Shown here in pieces: positions 43,275-64,000 of a stretch of DNA of 64,000 bases. The position numbers and the translations under genes were made by a program. This DNA comes from Algiphilus aromaticivorans DG1253 (GTDB lineage Bacteria; Pseudomonadota; Gammaproteobacteria; Nevskiales; Nevskiaceae). Under the pieces are notes generated by a model, which ran no database searches, was not told where the DNA came from, and was given only the letters and a program-made list of their open reading frames with translations. The stretch is taken from contig NZ_JPOG01000001.1 of the NCBI RefSeq assembly GCF_000733765.1, positions 2,046,001-2,110,000 of the forward strand. Direction: 5' to 3'. Each line of letters begins with the position of its first letter. Position 1 is the first letter of the stretch.

Positions 43275-44555
43275 TCAGGCGGCCTTGCGGCCGGCACCGC
43301 GATTCGTCTTCACGCGCAGGCGATTGATGCGACGCGCGTTGTGATGGCTGTAGTCATAGTCAATATCGCCGTCACCATTCGCCAGCTCGGCGTCGGGGAA
43401 GCGCTTCAGGAACTCGCTGATCATCAAGCCGCCCTGCACGCGCACCAGGTAGGTGCCAATGCAGAAGTGCGCGCCGGCGCCGAAGACGAGACTGCCGTCG
43501 AGATTGCGCTCGATATCGAGCTTGTGCGGTTCGGGGTACTTGTCGGGATCGTTCCAGGCCGCAGTCAGATTCACCAGAATGCACTTGCCCTTGCCGATGC
43601 GCTGACCACCGAAGTCGATATCCTCGGACGCAAAGCGAAAGAAGGGCAGCTTGCCCATGGAGCCGTGGCGCAACAGCTCGATGATGGCGTTCTCCATCAG
43701 CTCGGGCTTCTCGCGCAGCTTCGCCATCTGATCCGGGTTTTCCAGAAGGCCCTTGATGGCGAAGGTGTGCAGGTCGGTGGCCGTGTCCGAGCCGGCGGCG
43801 ATCAGCGCGAAGATGACGGCCAGGATGTCGTAGTCGTCTAGGCTATCGCCATCCTCACTGGCACCCACCAGGCTGCCCAGGAAGTCGTCGCCGGGATGCT
43901 CGCGCGCAAGCCGCTCGTTGATCAACTCCTTGAACAACGCGAAACCGGGCAGCGTGCCCTGTATCGCCTCTTCACGCTTGGCCGGGCTGAGGTTGGGGCG
44001 CGTGGCCTGAATGAGGTTGACCGCGAAGTCGTGGAAAAAGGCCTCACGATCGGTGGGCACCCCCACCATGCGCGCGATGGCGCGCACCGGCAGCTTGTTC
44101 GCAATGGCGTCGTAGACGTCGAACTCCTCGGCGTCACCGATATCGTCGAAACACTCGGTAACCAGATCCTCGATCTTGCCGTAGATCTTGCCCATCACCG
44201 GCTTGGAGAATGCCGGCATGGTCAGCTTGCGCAGCTTCAGGTGCTGCTTCTGGGAGACCGTGAACAGCGAATGGTCGAAGGCCTTGTCGAAATCGTTCTT
44301 CTCGGCTTCCGGCTTCTCCGGAGGCGCGTGCTCCCACATGCGGAAGTTCGGCGTGAAGCGGTTGTCCTTGAGCATGGCGCCGCAGAGCTCGTGGCTGTTG
44401 ACCACCCACATCTGCAATTCCTTGTGCCAAGCGATGGGATAGTCCTGCAGCAAGCGCTGCCAGGTCTCGTGCGGCTGCTGCACGAAATCGGGCGAGAAAG
44501 GATTGAAGACGGTGCTGTCGATCTCGATCAGCTGATTGGACGCGTTATCGCTCAT
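43275..44555 (-). CDS. Cytochrome P450, bacterial class I
   Basis: 426 aa soluble P450. I-helix oxygen-activation motif [17 protein letters not shown]-helix ELLRHGSM in place of the more usual ExxR spacing; heme ligand Cys 365 in [16 protein letters not shown]-terminus [16 protein letters not shown] is typical of bacterial families. Subfamily cannot be set by eye. Immediately preceded by TetR (ATGA overlap) and followed by rubredoxin. Confidence 0.93.
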
Positions 44556-50187: not shown

Positions 50188-51696
50188 TCAGGCAGCGACG
50201 GCGTCGGCCATCTCGTCGCGGATGACGCGACGAAGCAGCTTGCCCATCTCGTTGTAGGGAAGCGCATCCCGGAAGAGGATACGCTGCGGCACACGCGAGG
50301 AGCGCAGCTGATCGCGCACGCATTGCTGCAGCTCGGATTCGCTCACCGACGCGTCGGGCGCCAGCACCACGGCCGCGCCCACGCCCTCACCCCACTGCGG
50401 GTCGGGCACCGCGACAACAGCGACGTCGGCCACGGCCGGGTGCGCCAGCAGCACATCCTCGATCTCGCCGGGCGAGATGTTCTCGCCGCCGCGCACGATG
50501 ACGTCGTCGGCGCGACCGTCGAGGAAGAGATAGCCCTCGGCGTCGAGATAGCCGCGGTCGCGGGTCGGGAACCAGCCCTCGGCGTCAAGCTGGCTGCCCA
50601 ATGACAGGTACTCGCCGGAGACCTGCGGCCCGCGCACGAAGACGAAGCCGGCCTCCTCGGCATCGAGCACGCGCTCGTCCTCGTCGCGGATCTGGATCTC
50701 CACCGCGCCGGTGGGCTGACCCGCCGAAGCGAGCCGCCGCCGGACCTTCGGATCCTCGCTGGACATCGCCAGGCGATGGTCATCCGGGCCCAGAACGGCC
50801 ACGGTGGAGCTGGTCTCGGTCAGGCCGTAGGCATTGGTGAAATCGACCTGTGGCAGCAGCCCCATGGCGCGCTCGATGGTCTGCTGCGGCATGCGGCCGC
50901 CGCCGTAGGCGATGGCGCGCAGGCTGGGCAGCCCTTCGCCGCCCTCGGCGTCGAGCACCTCGATGATGCGCGCCAGCATGGTGGGCACGACGAAGGCGTT
51001 GCTCGCGTTCTCGCGGCGGCAGGCCTCGACCCAGCGCTGGGCGTCGAAGGCCCCGATCATCGCCATGCGGCGACAGGCGTAGGTCGACGACAGGATCGCC
51101 GATATCCCGGCGATATGGTATGGCGGCACGCTGACCAGATTGGCGTCGACCTCCTCGGCCGCACCGAATTCCACCGTGCCGATGATGTAAGAGGAAAGGT
51201 TCTCGTGGCGCAGCACGGCGGCCTTGGGCTTGCCGGTCGTGCCGCTGGTGAAGAGCTGCACGGCGATCTCCGCCGGATCCTCCGCGGCCGTGGACTCGGC
51301 GTCGACACGCTCGGCTGCAGCAGCGAGAAACTCGGCGCGCGAGATCGTCTCGATGCCATCGCGCGCCGGCAGACGACCCTCGGCCTCCGGCCCGACCACT
51401 ACGAGCGCCGGGCTGATCCGGTCCACCAGCTCGGCCAGCTCGGCGTCGGTCAGACGATAGTTCAGCGGCACATACGGAATCGCCGCGTGCGCGGCCCCGA
51501 AGGCGGCGATGGCAGTCGCCGGCGAGTTGACATCCAGCAACGCCAGATGCGCCGCGCCGCGCTCGCGCACGAACTGCGCAGCGCCCAGGGCGCGGCTCTT
51601 GAGGTCGGCGAAGGAGAGCTGCTCGCCCTCGTAGGAAATCGCGACACGGTCGCCGAAGGCCTCGGCGCTCATGTCGAGCAGCATGGTGATGTTCAT
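50188..51696 (-). CDS. Acyl-CoA synthetase (class I adenylate-forming)
   Basis: 502 aa. P-loop-like ATP motif QLFTSGTTGKPKAAVLRHEN; NAYGLTETSSTVAV; hinge region DRGYLDAEGYLFLDGRADDVIVRGGENISP; catalytic Lys in PYNEMGKLLRRV near the C-terminus. Activates a carboxylic acid with ATP and CoA. In this island it would start side-chain degradation of a sterol or terpenoid acid; substrate inferred only. Confidence 0.93.
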   Translation of the reverse strand: MNITMLLDMSAEAFGDRVAISYEGEQLSFADLKSRALGAAQFVRERGAAHLALLDVNSPATAIAAFGAAHAAIPYVPLNYRLTDAELAELVDRISPALVVVGPEAEGRLPARDGIETISRAEFLAAAAERVDAESTAAEDPAEIAVQLFTSGTTGKPKAAVLRHENLSSYIIGTVEFGAAEEVDANLVSVPPYHIAGISAILSSTYACRRMAMIGAFDAQRWVEACRRENASNAFVVPTMLARIIEVLDAEGGEGLPSLRAIAYGGGRMPQQTIERAMGLLPQVDFTNAYGLTETSSTVAVLGPDDHRLAMSSEDPKVRRRLASAGQPTGAVEIQIRDEDERVLDAEEAGFVFVRGPQVSGEYLSLGSQLDAEGWFPTRDRGYLDAEGYLFLDGRADDVIVRGGENISPGEIEDVLLAHPAVADVAVVAVPDPQWGEGVGAAVVLAPDASVSESELQQCVRDQLRSSRVPQRILFRDALPYNEMGKLLRRVIRDEMADAVAA

Positions 51697-54741: not shown

Positions 54742-55158
54742 TCAGGCTGATGCGGGACGGAACACCGGCACCTTGTGGTTGTTCATGGTCGGCACGAAGC
54801 AGACCTCGACCGGCATGTCGCGCGTGATGTCCTCGAAGGCGATGTCGATGACATTCGTGACGAAGCGCACGCCCTCCTCCAGTTCGATCACTGCCACGGT
54901 GGGCGGCTCCTTGAAGCCGAAGGCCGGCGGATGCACCGGCTTGACCCAGCTCACGACCTTGCCGCGGCCGGACAGCGGCGCGACCTCGATATCGAGGCTG
55001 TGCGTCTCCGGGCACATCGGCCGCGGCGGAAACAGGAACTTGCCGGTGGCGCGGCTGCGCTGGCAGACGAACTCCTCGCGATCGGCCGCCTCCCAGAAGA
55101 ACTGGGCATCGGGCGTGACGATCGGCGCCAGCCGCGTCGGCTTTTCTTCGTTGGTCAT
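54742..55158 (-). CDS. DUF35 OB-fold protein with a degenerate zinc ribbon
   Basis: 138 aa from the ATG at 55158. OB-fold core with GRGKVVSWVKPVHPPAFG and VAVIELEEGVRFVTNV. Zinc-ribbon region FVCQRSRATGKFLFPPRPMCPETHS retains the first Cys of each expected CxxC pair but not the second (S and T instead). DUF35 proteins form complexes with SCP-x-like thiolases and Ltp2-type aldolases. Encoded directly upstream of the thiolase gene. Confidence 0.87.
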   Translation of the reverse strand: MTNEEKPTRLAPIVTPDAQFFWEAADREEFVCQRSRATGKFLFPPRPMCPETHSLDIEVAPLSGRGKVVSWVKPVHPPAFGFKEPPTVAVIELEEGVRFVTNVIDIAFEDITRDMPVEVCFVPTMNNHKVPVFRPASA

Positions 55159-55252
55159 TTTTACTCGCTCGAAAAAGGCCGCAGATTGCACGGATCGTCG
55201 GGGTTGTCAGGGAAACAATCCGCGACCATCCGTGTCATCTGTGGCTCATGAA

Positions 55253-57721
55253 TCAGGATGCCGCCCGGGTCGGCATGCGGGGCATGCCCTCGAAGCCGAT
55301 GGCGAACTGCTCTTCCATCTCGGTCATCTGCTCCTCGGTGTAGCCCATCTCGGCGAGCATCTCCTTGGTGTGCTCGCCGACGATCAGCGGCCGCTGCTGG
55401 ATGACGCCGGGCGTCTCGGACAGATCCACGAGCAGCCCGATCTGATCGAGGCGACCAACGTGCGGATGATCGAAAGAGGTCACCCAGTGCCGCTTCTGGA
55501 ATTCGGGCGTGTCGTGCAGCTGCTTCGAGAATGTCTTGGAAACGATCTCCACCGGCACCCCGGCCGCATCGAGCTTGGCAAACCAGTTCTCGGACGTATC
55601 GGTGGCCAGACGCTCGGCGATAGCTGCAGCCAGCGCCGCGTCGTTGGCCTTGCGCGCCTCGGCATCCGCAAAGCGGCTGTCGGCCGCCAGCTCGGCCAGG
55701 CCTAGCGTCGTGAACAGGCCGTCCCAGTGCGCCTCGCTGGCCAGCACGAAGCAGAGCCAGCCTTCGGCGGTGTTGTAGACGCGGTGGCCCGCCGAAAAGC
55801 CGAACTGCTGACCGTCGAGCTTGGGCCGGTCGAAACCGGTGCCGTCGGGCTTGGCCACGGCATAGGAGGTGTTGAGCAGGCCGGCGTTGACGATGGAGGT
55901 GTCGACGAACTGCCCCTCGCCGGTGCGGTCGCGATGGTACAGCGCCTGGATCACCGCCACGGCCGACAGGAAGCCGTTGCCGGTATCGCCGAAGGAGGTG
56001 AAGCTCCACAACGGCTTGCCGCCGTTGTGCATGCCGCCATCCTCGTACTGAATGCCGGTCAGGCAGGCACCCGTCTGGTCGTTACCGGGAAGCGGCTGAC
56101 GCGGGCCGGTCTCGAAGCCGCGCGTGTGGCAGTAAACGATCTTAGGGTTCACCTTCTTCAGCGATTCGTAGTCGATCTTCAGGCGCTCAGCCGCGTCGTA
56201 GCGCATGTTGTGGTGCACGACGTCGGCGTCGGCCACCAGCTTGTGCAGGACCTCCAGCGAGCGCGGGTCCTTGACGTTGAGCGTGATGCTCTTCTTGCCG
56301 CGATTCGACATGAAGGCGATATGCACGCGGTGCCAGAACATGTCGTAGAGGCCGTTGACCTTGATGACCTCCGCGCCGAGATCGGCCAGCAGCTGGCAGC
56401 CGAAGGGCCCGGCGATGGCCATGCCCAGGTCGAGCACCTTGACGCCTTCCAGCGGCGCCCCCAGCTTGCCGCCCTGCTTGCTGCCGGCCGGTGCGGGCTT
56501 GCCCTGCTTGGCCTGCGCGCGCACTTCCTCGTTGTGCTCGCCGACCGAGGCGACACGATGATCGATCGTGTTCCGGTTGGCGCTCATCTTGTAGGTCTGG
56601 CCGACGCTGCGGACTGTTCCCAGCTCAGGATCGTCGAATTCGGCGACGCAGCCATCTTTCAGGAAGAGCGGATCGGCCAGCGACTCCTCCACCGAACGCA
56701 CGTCCTGCATGGTCATGCCGCCCTGTGCGGCGGCCTCCACCCACTCGTGCGAAGAGAACTTGGCGACAGCCTCCTGCAGGATCGGGTGATAGTGCGCCAT
56801 CACCAGCAGTTCCTCGGGCCCGGTGCCGAAGCGGTCCGGGTCGTTCTGCGCCGAGAGGTCGGGGTTGGCTTCGAGCTTGTCACCCTTGGAGGCTTCGAGG
56901 ATGAAGCGCGGGTTCGGCACCCAGTTGTGGATCCAGCGCTCGTCGGCGCACTTGAAGTGCCCCTTGGGCGAACGGCTCGACAGGATCCAGGAATCGAAGC
57001 CGGGATAGTCAATGTTCTCGGCGCGCTGCCAGACGCCGGCGCAGCCGGCGAGCACCCCCTGGAAGAGCGAGGTCTCGACGCGCTGCCCGCGGCCGGTGTG
57101 CTCACGCGCGCGCAGCGCGGCATTGATGCCCATCGAGGCAGCGAAGAAGGCGCCCAGACTCGGCCAGTGCGAGGACGGCATCAGTGGGCCTTCGCGGTCG
57201 GCGCCCTGCGTCCACTCGTCCGGAATCTCGGCGTCTTCGAACGTATCCGGTCGACCGGCCAGATGATTGAGTGCCCCTTCCGGCCAGCCGCGCTGCTCCC
57301 AGAGCATGCCGGTGCGCGCCATGACCAGCGCGTCGTAGGCGGGGCGATCGCTGTGCTCGGTGTCGCGACCATAGCCGGTGATGGAGCAATAGATCAGGCG
57401 TGGGTTGCGCGCCGTGAGGGAGTCGTAGTCGATGCCGAGACGCTTGGTGACACCGGGCGCAAAGCTCTCGACCAGCACATCGGCCTGGTCGACCAGCGCC
57501 AGGAAGGTCTCCAGATCTTCGGACTTCTTGAGGTCCAGCTCGGCGCGCTTCTTGCCGCGCTGCCAGACGCGATAGCCCATCTGATCCCGGTAAGGATCAC
57601 CGCCCGGCGGCTCGATCTTCGTCACGTCGGCGCCGTGATCGGCCATCAGCATGGCCGTCATCGGCCCGGCGACGCCCCAGGAAAGGTCCAGCACCTTGAT
57701 ATCTGCGAGTACTCCAGCCAT
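55253..57721 (-). CDS. Tandem CaiB/BaiF CoA-transferase (two domains)
   Basis: 822 aa, twice the normal family length. Domain 1 (about 1-395): KVLDLSWGVAGPMTAMLMAD and DRPAYDALVMARTG. Domain 2 (about 425-822): KVLDLGMAIAGPFGCQLLAD and PGNDQTGACLTG. Both retain a candidate catalytic Asp in that second segment. A Lys-rich linker with QGKPAPAGSKQGGK separates them. Transfers CoA between acids without ATP; here perhaps from a short acyl-CoA to the pathway acid. Confidence 0.92.
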   Translation of the reverse strand: MAGVLADIKVLDLSWGVAGPMTAMLMADHGADVTKIEPPGGDPYRDQMGYRVWQRGKKRAELDLKKSEDLETFLALVDQADVLVESFAPGVTKRLGIDYDSLTARNPRLIYCSITGYGRDTEHSDRPAYDALVMARTGMLWEQRGWPEGALNHLAGRPDTFEDAEIPDEWTQGADREGPLMPSSHWPSLGAFFAASMGINAALRAREHTGRGQRVETSLFQGVLAGCAGVWQRAENIDYPGFDSWILSSRSPKGHFKCADERWIHNWVPNPRFILEASKGDKLEANPDLSAQNDPDRFGTGPEELLVMAHYHPILQEAVAKFSSHEWVEAAAQGGMTMQDVRSVEESLADPLFLKDGCVAEFDDPELGTVRSVGQTYKMSANRNTIDHRVASVGEHNEEVRAQAKQGKPAPAGSKQGGKLGAPLEGVKVLDLGMAIAGPFGCQLLADLGAEVIKVNGLYDMFWHRVHIAFMSNRGKKSITLNVKDPRSLEVLHKLVADADVVHHNMRYDAAERLKIDYESLKKVNPKIVYCHTRGFETGPRQPLPGNDQTGACLTGIQYEDGGMHNGGKPLWSFTSFGDTGNGFLSAVAVIQALYHRDRTGEGQFVDTSIVNAGLLNTSYAVAKPDGTGFDRPKLDGQQFGFSAGHRVYNTAEGWLCFVLASEAHWDGLFTTLGLAELAADSRFADAEARKANDAALAAAIAERLATDTSENWFAKLDAAGVPVEIVSKTFSKQLHDTPEFQKRHWVTSFDHPHVGRLDQIGLLVDLSETPGVIQQRPLIVGEHTKEMLAEMGYTEEQMTEMEEQFAIGFEGMPRMPTRAAS

Positions 57722-57878: not shown

Positions 57879-58886
57879 CTAGCCCTTCAGGCGCACGTGA
57901 AAGTCTTGCAGCGCCGCGTCGATGGCCTCCTCTACCGGCGCTGGCTCCCATCCCAGCTCCTGCTGCGCGCGGTCATTGCGGCAGTTGCTGAGCTGCGTGG
58001 AGCAGCGGATGGCATCGCGACAGAAACGTGTCTCGCGGCCAAGCCGCGCAGCCAGCCATCCCGAGACATCCGCCATCGCAAGCATCGGCGCCATCGGGAA
58101 GCGCAGCCGCGGGCCCGGGCGCCCGGCCCAGCCCGCCGCATGTTCGAACATCTCGCGATAGCTCAGCCAGCGCTCGGAGAAGATATAGCGCGCGCCGGAA
58201 TCACCGTGCCGGGCGGCCAGAATCATGCCGCGTGCGGCGTCCTCGATACCGACACTGCAGGAACCGCCCTCCCAGTAGAAGGGCATGCGGCCACGGCTGG
58301 CATTCAGGATCAGCTGGCCCTGCGGCGTCGGCAGCAGATCCTTGGCGCCGAAGGTGGTCGCCACGCAAGCAGCGACGCCCTCCATGCGGCTATCAGCGAC
58401 AAATTCCAGAAACAGCCGCTCGGCCTCGACGCGGCAACGCAGGTAAGGCGGCAAGGCGTCGAGTGTGTCGTAGTAGTCGTCCTCATTCGACGGGCCGCCG
58501 TCGTCACGCGGGGCAATCGTGCCGACGCTGCTCGTGAAGACGAAGCGCCGTACACCGGCCGCTTCCGCAGCGCGCAGGCTGTTGCGCAAGCCGTCGACAT
58601 TGACCCGGTACAGCGGTGTCGGATCGCGCAGCCAGGCACGAGCGTCGACAACGCAGTGATAGACGGTGTCGATGCCCTCCATCGCGCGCACGAGACTGTC
58701 GGGCTGCAGCACATCGCCGTGCACAAGGTCCACGGGCAGGCCGGCGATCACTCGCATGTCGCTCGTCGGGCGCGCGAACACGCGCAACGCGTCGCCCTCG
58801 CCGCTCAGCTGTCGCACGATATGCGCGCCGAGAAAACCGGAGCCGCCGAGTACCAGCGCCGTAGGCGCGCTCCGCACCACCGGCAT
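57879..58886 (-). CDS. NAD-dependent epimerase/3beta-HSD-like SDR with atypical active site
   Basis: 335 aa extended SDR. Rossmann LVLGGSGFLGAHIVRQL. At the catalytic site the usual Tyr-x3-Lys reads YLRCRVEAE: Tyr is present but Lys is replaced by Arg; FVFTSSVGTI supplies the Ser. The neighbourhood (cycloisomerase, CYP51, second SDR) suggests a sterol 3beta-dehydrogenase/C4-decarboxylase-like role. Substitution may mean altered or lost activity, or an unusual member. Confidence 0.83.
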   Translation of the reverse strand: MPVVRSAPTALVLGGSGFLGAHIVRQLSGEGDALRVFARPTSDMRVIAGLPVDLVHGDVLQPDSLVRAMEGIDTVYHCVVDARAWLRDPTPLYRVNVDGLRNSLRAAEAAGVRRFVFTSSVGTIAPRDDGGPSNEDDYYDTLDALPPYLRCRVEAERLFLEFVADSRMEGVAACVATTFGAKDLLPTPQGQLILNASRGRMPFYWEGGSCSVGIEDAARGMILAARHGDSGARYIFSERWLSYREMFEHAAGWAGRPGPRLRFPMAPMLAMADVSGWLAARLGRETRFCRDAIRCSTQLSNCRNDRAQQELGWEPAPVEEAIDAALQDFHVRLKG

Positions 58887-58935: not shown

Positions 58936-59727
58936 CTACAGCGCGCCCACCCAGTGGGTCGCGAAGTCGAGCAGATAGAAGGTCAGCATGCTCGCGGCCA
59001 GCGCGCCGGCCGCCGTCTGGGTGAGGCTCCAGCGCCGCGCCGGCGTTTCGTCGACGAAGTAGTAGATTGGGAAGCTGGCAATGAAATAGGTGGCGTAGAT
59101 CGCCGATCCGTAGGCCAGCATCGCCTCCATGTCCCGGTAGTAGAAGCTGGAGGCCATCAACGGATTGGCCATGGCCTTGGTCTCGATCCAGGCCCACAGG
59201 TAGCCGATGACGAAGACAAAGACCGGAAACAGCAGCCCCATGGCCGGCAGGCGCAGATTCCCCAGCACGCGCAGCGCGATATTGGCCGTGGCGTGATAGG
59301 TCATGAAGAAGGCATGCGTGTAGAAGTACATGATCAGCGGCACCTGTTGCTCGCCGCTGCCCAGCAACGCCGCATCCAGGTTGGTCGTGACATTCGGGTA
59401 GACATAGACCATGCCGAGTACATCGAAGAAGTACTCGGAGCCGAAGTAGTTGCCGAAGAAGGAAAAGAGCCCGAGGTAGAGGTTCACCTTCAGCCAGTAG
59501 CTGTCGCGCCACGGTCGCTCCGAGAAGCGACCGGCCAGCAGCATCGGCAGCACGAGAATCGGCACAGCGGTGAGTACAGCGTGCGCGAGCATCGCCGTAT
59601 CGCCCCACTGCTCGCCCCATCCGGTAAGCACCATGACGGCCATGGACAGCATCCAGACCGGCGAATAAAGCAGAAAGACCTTCTCGACCCAGGCCTTGTC
59701 CGGGTTGCTGGAAAAGACGCGACTCAT
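58936..59727 (-). CDS. Cycloeucalenol cycloisomerase-like membrane protein
   Basis: 263 aa, predicted five to seven membrane helices. By eye it aligns throughout with plant cycloeucalenol cycloisomerase (CPI1), which opens the 9beta,19-cyclopropane ring of plant sterols: FLLYSPVWMLSMAVMVL, WGDTAMLAHAVLTAVPILVL, DSYWLKVNLYLGLFSFFGNY (like RYWVKAN..IFS.VGNYF), FFDVLGMVYVYPNV, MYFYTHAFFMTYHATANIAL, AWIETKAMANPLM and YATYFIASFPIYYFVDE. Eight nt from the NTF2-like gene; 49 nt from the SDR. No competing family came to mind. Confidence 0.8.
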   Translation of the reverse strand: MSRVFSSNPDKAWVEKVFLLYSPVWMLSMAVMVLTGWGEQWGDTAMLAHAVLTAVPILVLPMLLAGRFSERPWRDSYWLKVNLYLGLFSFFGNYFGSEYFFDVLGMVYVYPNVTTNLDAALLGSGEQQVPLIMYFYTHAFFMTYHATANIALRVLGNLRLPAMGLLFPVFVFVIGYLWAWIETKAMANPLMASSFYYRDMEAMLAYGSAIYATYFIASFPIYYFVDETPARRWSLTQTAAGALAASMLTFYLLDFATHWVGAL

Positions 59728-59735
59728 GACGGCGC

Positions 59736-60374
59736 CTAGCGACCGAAGGTGGCGATACGCGCCATCGCCATGAAGTTGCGCAGCTTGCGCCCTGCCGACG
59801 GCGCATCGCCCAGCTTGCGATGTCCAGCGAGCAGCTCACCCTTCGCCTGGCGGCGAATCTTGTCCTTGACCGGCTCGGACAGCGCATTCATGCCGGCCAG
59901 CTCGAAGAACAGCGCCTTGACGTTGCCCAGATCGAAGAAGTCGCGCTGCCATCCCCATTGGTAATTGCCGGCGTATTCGAACCAGGAACCGCCGATACCC
60001 TCGACACAAATGCGCGAGCCGTCCGCGCGGGTATAGGGCGACATCTGCTTCCAGAAGCCGAGCACCGTGCCGCGCCGGTCGTCAATGATGATGTCGTGGT
60101 AGGGGTACTCCCAGCCCTCGAAGCCCTCCATCTGATAGCCGAGGGCGATGTCGCAGATCTCCTTTCGACCGTTGGCAACGAACTCCTCGTGGGGCCCCAT
60201 GTTCCAGGTGTAGACCGCATCCTCGGTGTACATCGGGCCGAGATGCGTGGTCCAGTCGCGATCCTTCTCGGCATCGACATTGGCCTGCAGCCACTTTTCC
60301 ACCATGGTTTCCATCTCCTCGCGGGGATAGGCCTGATTCGGTGGCGTGATCGATGACACTCGCTTCTCGGACAT
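59736..60374 (-). CDS. NTF2/SnoaL-like protein
   Basis: 212 aa. SnoaL/NTF2-like cone fold about residues 20-150: MVEKWLQANVDAEKDRDWTTHLGPMYTEDAVYTWN, FVANGRKEICDIALGYQ and HDIIIDDRRGTVLGFWKQ. The C-terminal 60 residues are helical and basic. No signal peptide. Members of this fold isomerise ketosteroids or hydrate ring compounds, but without a recognised catalytic pair. Adjacent stop to the SDR downstream in transcription. Confidence 0.72.
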   Translation of the reverse strand: MSEKRVSSITPPNQAYPREEMETMVEKWLQANVDAEKDRDWTTHLGPMYTEDAVYTWNMGPHEEFVANGRKEICDIALGYQMEGFEGWEYPYHDIIIDDRRGTVLGFWKQMSPYTRADGSRICVEGIGGSWFEYAGNYQWGWQRDFFDLGNVKALFFELAGMNALSEPVKDKIRRQAKGELLAGHRKLGDAPSAGRKLRNFMAMARIATFGR

Positions 60375-61440: not shown

Positions 61441-63132
61441 TTATTCCTCGACCAGCTTCAGCGCCTGAGTCGGGCAGAGCTCCACTGCCTGATCGACCTT
61501 CGCCTTGTCCCCGGGATCGACTGCCTCCTTGACGATGTGCAGCACACCGTCCGCCCCCACCTGGAAATGCGCCGGGGACTCGCCCATGCAGACGGCGTGG
61601 CCCTGGCATAGATCGCGGTCGACCGTCACGCGCAGGCTGCGTGCAGCGCTCGCGGGGGCCTCCTGCGCAGTGTGTGCAGTGTGGACAGGACAACCGGCTG
61701 CGGCCGCGTCCGGGATGGCCTCCGGCGCACCGGCCGTGCCGTAGCGTGTAGCGAAGCTGCCCGGATCACGGCGCCGGTAGCGCACCCGGCAGGGCTCCTC
61801 CGGCTGCACGATCATCTCGGAGTAGTCGTCGACGTAGCTCTCGGGCCGATCAACCAGCTCAAAGTCGTATCGGCGCAGCAGCACAGCGAAGATCGCCTTG
61901 ATCTGGAACATCGCGAAGGCGTTCCCGGAGCACTTGTGCTTGCCGCCGCCGAACGGCTGATAGGCCATGATGTTCTTGTCCTCGCGGCGCCCTTCCCCGA
62001 AGCGATCCGGGTCGAAGACCTCCGGGTTCGGAAACAGGCTCGACATGCGATGCGTCACCGGTGGCGAGGCCCAGACCATGTCCCCCGAGCGAATCGTGTA
62101 GCCCTTGAAATTGAGGTCCTCGTTGACCTGGCGCATCAGGATGATCAGCGGTGGATGCAGGCGCAGCACTTCCTTGAGCACGCAGTCCAGCACATGCATC
62201 TCGCGCATGTTCTGGTAGGTGATCTCGCCTTCGGCGCCGAGCAGTTCGTCGACCTCCTCGCGTGCCTGCTTGAGGATGTGTGGATGCTTCAACAGCTCGA
62301 GCAGCATCCAGGCGGCCGTACCGGAGCTGGTGTGGTGCCCGGCGAAGATGGCACCGATGAGCATGCCGGTGATCTCGTCCTCGGACAGCGCCGTGCCATC
62401 GGCGTAGCGCATGTCGATCAGGCTCTGGAACATGTCGTCGGGCTTGTCCGACTGCTCCGCACGCCGCCGTACGATGTCGCCGACAAGCTGCTTCAAGCGC
62501 TTGCGCGCCCGGTCGCGGCGGCGGAAGCGCGGAATCGGCAGATTGGGGAAGTGATAGGCGACCGGGTGCACGCCTTGCTCAAGGTCGTGATAGATCTCCG
62601 CGAACTCCTCGTTGAGTTCATAGCGAAACTCGCGGCCGAGCAGGCAGTGACTCGCAGTGTTGATCGTCAGCTGCTTCATGAAGGCGACCAGCTCGATCTC
62701 GCCCGCCTTCTCCCAGTTCGCGATGAGCTCCTCGACCTCCTGCACGACCTTGGTCGAATGGTTGCGCATGGCCTCCGCACGCAGCGTCGGCATCAGCATG
62801 CGCAGCTGCTCATTCTTGCGCTCGATGGGTGCGTCGAAGATGACGCCCTCGCCGAAGACGGGCGTCATCAGTTTATAGGCAGCGGACTGATCCAGCTGCT
62901 CATCCGAGCCGCGGTAGAAGACCTCGCTGGCTTCATCGCCGGTGAGCAGCACCACGCGCTGGCCGAGCAGACGGAAAGAGGCGATCTCGCCGCCTCTGCG
63001 CGCAACGTCCGAGACGAAGTGGAAGGGATTCCGGACGAAGGAGATCAGATGACCCGCCCAGGGCAGGCCACCCGGATGCGAGGGCGGATTGGGCCCGCCG
63101 CCGCGCGGTTGTGTCATCGTGTGGGTTGCCAT
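61441..63132 (-). CDS. CYP51-type sterol 14alpha-demethylase fused to ferredoxin
   Basis: 563 aa from the ATG at 63132 (AGGAG upstream). P450 domain about 1-460: AAYKLMTPVFGEGVIFDAP is the CYP51 substrate-recognition signature; I-helix FAGHHTSSGTAAWMLLELLKH; LRLHPPLIILMR; heme Cys about 405 in FGGGKHKCSGNAFAMFQIKAIF. These match bacterial CYP51 segments closely from memory. An Ala/Pro linker (about 465-500) leads to a 3Fe-4S-type ferredoxin with CQGHAVC (CxxHxxC) and CPTQALK. The same fusion is known from Methylococcus. Removes the 14alpha-methyl of sterols in known enzymes. Confidence 0.92.
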   Translation of the reverse strand: MATHTMTQPRGGGPNPPSHPGGLPWAGHLISFVRNPFHFVSDVARRGGEIASFRLLGQRVVLLTGDEASEVFYRGSDEQLDQSAAYKLMTPVFGEGVIFDAPIERKNEQLRMLMPTLRAEAMRNHSTKVVQEVEELIANWEKAGEIELVAFMKQLTINTASHCLLGREFRYELNEEFAEIYHDLEQGVHPVAYHFPNLPIPRFRRRDRARKRLKQLVGDIVRRRAEQSDKPDDMFQSLIDMRYADGTALSEDEITGMLIGAIFAGHHTSSGTAAWMLLELLKHPHILKQAREEVDELLGAEGEITYQNMREMHVLDCVLKEVLRLHPPLIILMRQVNEDLNFKGYTIRSGDMVWASPPVTHRMSSLFPNPEVFDPDRFGEGRREDKNIMAYQPFGGGKHKCSGNAFAMFQIKAIFAVLLRRYDFELVDRPESYVDDYSEMIVQPEEPCRVRYRRRDPGSFATRYGTAGAPEAIPDAAAAGCPVHTAHTAQEAPASAARSLRVTVDRDLCQGHAVCMGESPAHFQVGADGVLHIVKEAVDPGDKAKVDQAVELCPTQALKLVEE

Positions 63133-63170: not shown

Positions 63171-64000
63171 CTAGCGGCCCGCCCGGGCGGCCGCCTCCGG
63201 CGCGAACTGCTGGGGCCGCATCGGCTGATTGAGACGCCACCAGCCGTCGCCGGCCTCGTTGACCAGGTAGTCCGCCTCGTAGGCGCCCGAGGTCAGGTCG
63301 TGGAAAAGCGAAACGCCGCGCTGGTAGGTCCCCGATTCCTGCGAGTAGAAGTACAGCACCCAGTTGCTGCGCCAAATATTGCCGCGCGTGTCGTAGTTAT
63401 CCGACATGTGCGCCAGCCAGGTGTCCTCGTGCGCATAGATACGCCGCTTGCCGTAGACGTGGCGGTACTCCTCCTTCAGGTAGCCGTCGATGACCCAGAC
63501 GCGATGCAGCTCCCAGCGCACATGCTCGGGGTTGATGGTCTTGGACTGAATGAGCTCGTCGTAGCTGATATCGGGGTCGTTGACCCGGAAGTTGTGGCGC
63601 GGGATGTACATCTCCTTCTTGCCCACCAGCTTCCAGCTATAGCGCTCCGGCGAGCCGTTGAAGATGTAGTCATCGTCGGAGGTCCGCATGCCGGCCGGCG
63701 GCACGGGATAGTCGTGACCGATCTCGGGGGCCTTGCGCACGCGGCGGGTGCCAGGGTTGTACTGCCAGGCCTGCGTCGAGTCGTTGGCGAAGTTGTTCGG
63801 CTGGTAGCCGACGTTGATCTCGCCGCGGTTGCTCGGTGGCGCCAGCAGTTCGATGAAGAGATAGCCGCCAACCTTGTCGCTGAAATAACCGCGCTCGTCC
63901 GGATCGGGATTGGCGCCCGCGTTCATGGTCGTGAAGTCCCATTTCCCCCACGAAACAGTGCCGTCGCCCTGCACGACCGCGATGTCGTAGATCGCGTGTT
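63171..64000 (-). CDS. DUF1329 envelope protein (copy 2), 5' end outside the window
   Basis: Partial; at least 276 aa of the C-terminal part. Strongly similar by eye (about 60% identity) to the 41,073-42,470 product: YDIAVVQGDGTVSWGKW, VGYQPNNFANDSTQAWQY, DYPVPPAGMRTSDDDYIFNGSPERYSWKLV, NPEHVRWELHRVWVIDG and YEADYLVNEAGDGWW. Adjacent to the CYP51-ferredoxin gene (38 nt). The frame is open through position 64000. Confidence 0.87.
   Translation of the reverse strand, partial: HAIYDIAVVQGDGTVSWGKWDFTTMNAGANPDPDERGYFSDKVGGYLFIELLAPPSNRGEINVGYQPNNFANDSTQAWQYNPGTRRVRKAPEIGHDYPVPPAGMRTSDDDYIFNGSPERYSWKLVGKKEMYIPRHNFRVNDPDISYDELIQSKTINPEHVRWELHRVWVIDGYLKEEYRHVYGKRRIYAHEDTWLAHMSDNYDTRGNIWRSNWVLYFYSQESGTYQRGVSLFHDLTSGAYEADYLVNEAGDGWWRLNQPMRPQQFAPEAAARAGR

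Follow-up and report, generated by a model that had tools for sequence, protein, structure and literature searches.

Plant and green-algal sterol synthesis passes through 9,19-cyclopropane sterols. Cycloeucalenol cycloisomerase (CPI) acts in this synthesis in plants, and the residues that matter in the plant enzyme were reportedly the subject of a mutational study by Rahier and Karst in 2014. In the plant pathway described in PMC12667688, CPI and CYP51 catalyze consecutive steps, numbers 9 and 10. In bacteria, a pair composed of CYP51 fused to ferredoxin (CYP51-Fd) and an 8,14-sterol reductase (8,14-Bsr) is described for methanotrophs, Mycobacteriales and others (PMC13277303). 8,14-Bsr was described in 2026 and acts directly on the product of CYP51, as shown by expression; its pocket residues, in M. 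capsulatus numbering, are Y37, Y43, Y78, Y80, D133 and D136, and homologues, often co-localised with CYP51, are reported in gammaproteobacteria and others (PMC13277303). The main text of that article makes no mention of CPI; "cyclo" occurs there once and "cycloartenol" once, in the title of a reference. Further, among the matches listed from the open-licence PMC literature, no title or abstract opening named bacterial genes for ring opening of cyclopropane sterols.

Here we analyzed a locus of Algiphilus aromaticivorans DG1253 that resembles both systems. Its predicted CPI aligns with plant CPI1 over the full length (37% identity), shares acidic, His, Tyr and Lys positions with it and has as a neighbour CYP51, the next enzyme after CPI in the plant pathway. 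With the described bacterial pair, the locus shares the fused CYP51-Fd and the same six residues of 8,14-Bsr. In contrast to plant CPI1, which acts in synthesis, the protein is bacterial, its activity is predicted, its gene lies in a tight run with those for CYP51-Fd and a candidate 8,14-Bsr, and no cyclase was detected in 17 of the 17 alpha- and gammaproteobacterial host genomes searched. Unlike this locus, the pair of CYP51-Fd and 8,14-Bsr in two genomes of our class sample that have no CPI (G246 and G358) is accompanied by cyclase matches.

Results

A bacterial protein of the CPI family

The window, which is the whole stretch of 64,000 nucleotides that was analyzed, contains a gene that the initial annotation had called a bacterial homologue of cycloeucalenol cycloisomerase (Table 1). 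Its reading frame starts with ATG and is free of internal stops, and the motifs quoted in that annotation (YSPVW, YWLKVNLYLGLFSFFGNY, THAFFMTYH and YFIASFPIYY) are all present. A full-length alignment to Arabidopsis CPI1 (AtCPI1) confirmed the homology: in BLASTP, the proteins were 37% identical with 54% positives over 256 alignment columns (148 bits). The AtCPI1 query, the sole plant sequence in all comparisons, was entered by hand. With phmmer, AtCPI1 matched the protein at E = 2.3e-40, and there was no second match to AtCPI1 among the other ORFs of the window. When AtCPI1 was compared by phmmer with the 4751 ORFs of the window and of 74 loci, 75 ORFs matched, from every source but L118 (74 of 75), and 74 of these ORFs, one per source, matched at E < 1e-5. 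The 74 loci had been collected as relatives of the window protein, and the chance control of this search is therefore given by the approximately 4,700 other ORFs, which had no match.

Table 1. Features of the window around the CPI-like gene (functions are predicted).
Position	Strand	Feature	Basis
43275..44555	-	Second cytochrome P450	PF00067
45826..46977	-	Rieske oxygenase with KshA C-terminal domain	PF19298 and PF00355 above cut-off
50188..51696	-	Acyl-CoA ligase	PF00501
53486..54649	-	Lipid-transfer/thiolase-like protein, candidate sterol side-chain aldolase	PRK07855, 533 bits (cut-off 469)
54742..55191	-	ChsH2-like OB/zinc-ribbon partner	OB_ChsH2_C and zf-ChsH2 above cut-offs
55253..57721	-	Fused double family III CoA-transferase	PF02515, two stretches
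57879..58886	-	Second SDR, HpnA/SdmB-like, downstream of CPI	Pfam; NCBIfam matches below cut-off
58936..59727	-	CPI-family membrane protein, predicted cyclopropylsterol cycloisomerase	263 aa; similarity to AtCPI1, tree, AlphaFold model
59736..60374	-	NTF2/SnoaL-like protein, predicted bacterial 8,14-sterol reductase (8,14-Bsr)	212 aa; six pocket residues
60375..61427	-	SDR, 3-beta-HSD/HpnA/SdmB-like	Pfam Epimerase and 3Beta_HSD above cut-off
61441..63132	-	CYP51 sterol 14-alpha-demethylase fused to ferredoxin	PDB 6mcw, Fer4_15; ATG start taken at 63132
63171..63998	-	DUF1329 protein, truncated by window end	PF07044

No Pfam or NCBIfam model matched the CPI-like protein at E <= 1, and a PDB sequence search gave weak partial matches (best E = 0.17). 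In the alignment, 17 residues were identical in AtCPI1 and all 40 rows of the clade to which the window protein belongs (clade I, see below): E15, Y21, K80, Y94, Y99, Y108, Y144, H145, R153, Y176, E182, T183, Y211, Y214, D226, E227 and W233. The acidic, His, Lys and Tyr positions shared with the plant enzyme (E15, K80, H145, E182, D226, E227 and eight Tyr) were thus kept in 40 of 40 clade I rows. The AlphaFold model, built with 70 bacterial rows, had a pLDDT of 90.4 and a pTM of 0.89 and predicted a bundle of seven helices of at least 19 residues and two short ones, the helices being mostly hydrophobic. Searches with this model gave no confident fold relative among solved structures (Foldseek best E 0.41; VIA-align best Z 4.5), and EBP, of the EBP/EXPERA sterol isomerase fold, was absent among the Foldseek and VIA-align matches listed. 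No plasmid relatives of the protein were found and no viral-contig relatives were confirmed.

The CPI-like gene lies in a run with CYP51 and a candidate 8,14-sterol reductase

The CPI-like gene is the fourth, in transcription order, of five tightly packed minus-strand genes, which encode CYP51-Fd, an SDR, an NTF2/SnoaL-like protein, the CPI-like protein and a second SDR; the gaps between them are 13, 0, 8 and 49 bases. CYP51-Fd, which had previously been noted beside the CPI-like gene, was confirmed in the same run. Its best PDB match, titled "Cytochrome P450 51" (6mcw, 634 bits), covered residues 2-547 of 549 and is presumably the M. capsulatus enzyme, and Pfam placed a Fer4_15 domain at residues 488-545. 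Both SDRs that flank the CPI-like gene match models of the SdmB/HpnA type, but far below the cut-offs (for the upstream one, NCBIfam HpnA at 180 bits and SdmB at 103 bits); that the two carry out C-4 demethylation is a guess. A 55% identical copy of the second SDR adjoins the Zavarzinia marina locus.

The NTF2/SnoaL-like protein gave a SnoaL_2 match below the Pfam cut-off. It possesses Y49, Y55, Y90, Y92, D145 and D148, which correspond by spacing (6, 35, 2, 53 and 3, identical in both proteins) to the six published pocket residues of 8,14-Bsr. This spacing was present in 24 of the 4751 ORFs, namely that of the window and 23 in clade I loci. Further, two genomes with CYP51-Fd encode homologues of the protein at 58 and 65% identity, and in the homologues of G246, G358 and G098, counted from their own start codons, the residues fall on the published numbers. 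With these pocket residues in the product of the third gene, the CPI-like, 8,14-Bsr-like and CYP51 genes lie in one tight four-gene run. The earlier interpretation of the locus was partly supported; the adjacent candidate 8,14-sterol reductase, which is the best pathway marker, had gone unmentioned in it.

The CPI family in bacteria comprises two clades

The family had been regarded in the initial annotation as essentially plant and algal. This was not borne out, because one scan of a genome collection (84,980 species) gave at least 74 CPI-family loci in prokaryote records, a lower bound since two short peptide patterns were used as the query. The loci occur in Nevskiales, Zavarzinia (alpha), Spongiibacter, Ketobacter, strain HdN1, Halieaceae, some Sphingomonadales and many MAGs of Myxococcota and Deltaproteobacteria. 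CPI-family sequences were present in records titled as a Klebsiella pneumoniae MAG (L087) and an archaeal Bathyarchaeota MAG (L118, one of the 74 loci and a fragment of 57 residues only), perhaps through wrong binning. Within the order of the window, 17 of 85 genomes had a CPI relative. Besides the window itself, these comprise five with relatives of 63-73% identity and eleven with relatives of 40-45%. Of 369 evenly sampled class members, only the window genome matched the family at E <= 1e-10, indicating that the CPI-like gene is rare.

A maximum-likelihood tree of 74 rows separated 33 rows of clade II from 40 rows of clade I, including the window, together with AtCPI1 (split support 100/100). 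In this unrooted tree, AtCPI1 was placed within clade I at 91/65 on a very long branch (2.4), and an AU test did not reject its position outside clade I (p 0.188 and 0.477 in two runs, same split). Clade I proteins were on average 36% identical to AtCPI1, and clade II proteins 30%. The CPIs of two Polyangia records (L051 and L056) fell among gamma- and alphaproteobacterial rows, by transfer or wrong binning. Clade II comprises L007-L017 together with those rows from L083-L117 that fall in it; its 33 tree rows are mostly away from CYP51.

Of the 40 clade I loci other than the window, 33 had a CYP51 gene at most 6 kb from CPI, as did 2 of the 34 clade II loci; where the upstream flank was 4 kb or longer, the numbers were 30 of 33 and 1 of 28, respectively. 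These are raw counts of loci that are related and thus not independent. They omit 14 loci whose genomes occur in both collections, as well as the fragments L116 and L118; L109 and L114, which are outside the tree, were given their clade by identity, and L070 and L079, from one MAG, were counted as two loci. The clade I loci with long flanks that had no CYP51 within 6 kb were L051, L075 and L109, of which L075 has one approximately 9 kb away. In clade II, a CYP51-like match of 253-358 bits was found in five loci, two within 6 kb and three farther. Among the 85 genomes of the order, the six with CYP51 at E <= 1e-60 were exactly the six with a clade I CPI. The CYP51 match was split into two places in one genome (G067, L021) and spanned one in-frame TGA in another (G057, L018).

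8,14-Bsr was not present throughout. Ten clade I loci had CYP51 and no Bsr within 6 kb, and Bsr was missing in G044, one of the six order members with a clade I CPI. In three clade I loci (L061, L067 and L072), there was a Bsr match, but no ORF had the six-residue pattern. In a sub-group of Myxococcota and Deltaproteobacteria (L062, L066, L068, L069, L071, L078 and L079), CYP51 adjoins CPI and no Bsr match was found, and another 14-reductase may therefore follow there; L020, L052 and L053 are likewise without Bsr.

Clade II loci often contain KshA-like Rieske, P450 or SDR genes, and four of them (L026, L104, L106 and L108) encode a P450 63-64% identical to the second P450 of the window. The clade II proteins, mostly not linked to CYP51, keep most of the conserved polar residues, and the substrate is thus not fixed by family membership alone. 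This clade points to more than one function in the CPI family. The window protein might accordingly be a steroid isomerase with the CPI fold and another substrate, which, for example, shifts a double bond in an 8(14)- or delta-8 degradation intermediate; its resemblance to CPI would then reflect fold and chemistry rather than substrate. Other substrates are possible because clade II occurs apart from CYP51, in many cases close to Rieske and P450 genes, and several Myxococcota loci have CPI adjoining CYP51 but no Bsr match. However, the window protein belongs to the clade that is linked to CYP51, the enzyme that acts directly after CPI in plants, and ten positions are common to clade I and AtCPI1 and absent in clade II, with six vice versa (80%/20% thresholds). 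We therefore consider another substrate unlikely.

Sterol-degradation candidates surround the run and the genome has no detectable cyclase

The initial annotation had raised a catabolic role, and a catabolic rather than biosynthetic setting was supported by candidate sterol-degradation genes on both sides of the run (Table 1) and by a genome without a detected cyclase. The side-chain aldolase role of the lipid-transfer/thiolase-like protein is assumed by analogy with Ltp proteins. The two family III CoA-transferase domains are encoded by a single gene of 822 aa, which adjoins the Ltp and ChsH2 pair. The Rieske oxygenase had no NCBIfam match at 1e-20.

Beyond the window, at 27-35 kb from its end, the same genome contains candidate steroid ring-degradation genes (L129). 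They encode a homologue (271 bits) of the CoA-transferase alpha subunit 6co6, which we take to be IpdA, with a borderline CoA-transferase match at the place expected for IpdB; a PRK07938 match above cut-off, presumably EchA20; an IpdE2 match below cut-off; and another Ltp-ChsH2 pair. An extradiol dioxygenase in this region had 2zi8, presumably HsaC, as its best PDB match; it gave 278 bits with a biphenyl-diol model and 251 bits with HsaC, both below cut-off. HsaC-family matches were detected in 13 of 13 genomes, all under the model cut-off. Judged from sequence families, L129 is likely a steroid ring-degradation cluster, and the surroundings of the CPI run look like sterol degradation. An MMPL/RND transporter at L128:16141-18468 matched the sterol-sensing domain (PF12349) at 26.8 bits, above the cut-off of 22.3, and is a possible sterol transporter.

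In a biosynthetic cluster, the same enzyme would serve a host that makes sterols of the cycloartenol type. The genome of the window (98.9% complete) had no match to the squalene/oxidosqualene cyclase model PF13243; this was also the case for all six genomes of the order that have both CYP51 and a clade I CPI, the window's included, and 2 of 14 control genomes matched. The search was extended to 27 genomes, 26 of them with a clade I CPI and 12 alpha- or gammaproteobacterial, of which one (L055) duplicates G058. Thus, the six order members and 11 further genomes gave 0 of 17 clade I alpha- or gammaproteobacterial genomes with a cyclase. The 27 genomes gave five cyclase matches, four with the oxidosqualene-cyclase motif DCTAE and one with DDTAV. 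The genomes with DCTAE cyclases all have a clade I CPI; three are Myxococcota records and the fourth is a bacterium placed with Myxococcota by the tree, and biosynthetic use is therefore possible there. The myxobacterium Stigmatella aurantiaca is described as making sterols from cycloartenol (PMC8172173), which likewise favors biosynthesis. For the window, the lack of a PF13243 match in its own genome, in five other order members and in the 11 further genomes, together with the candidate sterol-degradation genes close by, makes a biosynthetic cluster very improbable.

Class members with CYP51 and without CPI had a cyclase match in five of six cases, including both that possess CYP51-Fd and Bsr (G246 and G358). 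The cyclase of G358 (L142) has the DCTAE motif, and in the lower-scoring one of G246 (L141) the motif was not found by script, so that L141 is a cyclase match rather than a confirmed oxidosqualene cyclase. Full cyclase matches were present in G025 and G023. The four DCTAE cyclases of genomes with a clade I CPI (L120-L123) have HGWPVSDCTAE with a glycine-alanine stretch upstream, which we take to be the place of the diagnostic Tyr or Thr in oxidosqualene cyclases. An assignment of these four as cycloartenol- or lanosterol-type was dropped, as neither was clear against the plant and animal diagnostic positions.

Discussion

We propose that the run is a module predicted to open the cyclopropane ring and remove the 14-methyl group of sterols that come from plants or algae and serve as food after uptake, and we put the probability of this reading at roughly three in four. 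Homology, the residues of the neighbour, gene order, linkage and the absence of a detectable cyclase were computed, and from these we infer the substrate, the reaction, the order of the reactions and the use of the product as food. The CPI-like enzyme would act on plant or algal sterols of the cycloartenol or cycloeucalenol type, opening their 9-beta,19-cyclopropane ring to give a delta-8 sterol. CYP51-Fd, encoded three genes upstream, would next remove the 14-alpha-methyl group and leave an 8,14-diene, from which 8,14-Bsr would form an 8(14)-sterol by reduction. This product would then enter side-chain and ring degradation, for which candidate genes lie on both sides. The SDRs are possible partners for C-3 oxidation and C-4 decarboxylation, and the Rieske oxygenase may perhaps also act on C-3 and C-4. 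Because plant CPIs are described as poor on 4,4-dimethyl substrates (PMC12667688), C-4 demethylation may come first.

A recent transfer of the gene from a plant or alga to this bacterium would account for its likeness to the plant enzyme but is scarcely credible, because the linkage is common to dozens of bacterial relatives in several classes, the G+C content of the CPI-like gene (0.61 vs 0.62 for the Bsr-like gene; 0.87 at third positions) fits its neighbours, and AtCPI1 is not nested among the close relatives of the window protein in the tree. Transfer from a eukaryote, which the initial annotation had offered as one origin, was not supported; AtCPI1 is a single long branch and one plant sequence gives no direction. 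A broader view is that bacteria own a dedicated gateway, from CPI through CYP51-Fd to 8,14-Bsr, by which sterol degraders use plant and green-algal sterols of the 14-methyl, 9,19-cyclo type, and that plant CPI, through which the cycloartenol route becomes workable, descends from this originally catabolic bacterial family. We hold this view tentatively and, on balance, doubt it.

In the proposed module for cyclopropane opening and 14-methyl removal, the run names three successive enzymes for cyclopropane sterols. Microbial transformation of cycloartenol was reportedly studied by Lee, Young and Wang in 1991, who are said to have isolated C19 steroids, and bacterial CPI is a candidate for the ring opening in such transformations. 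Further, a well-predicted model is now available for a family without a confident sequence match among solved structures, and the CPI family provides bacterial sequences with which the origin of the plant enzyme may be asked.
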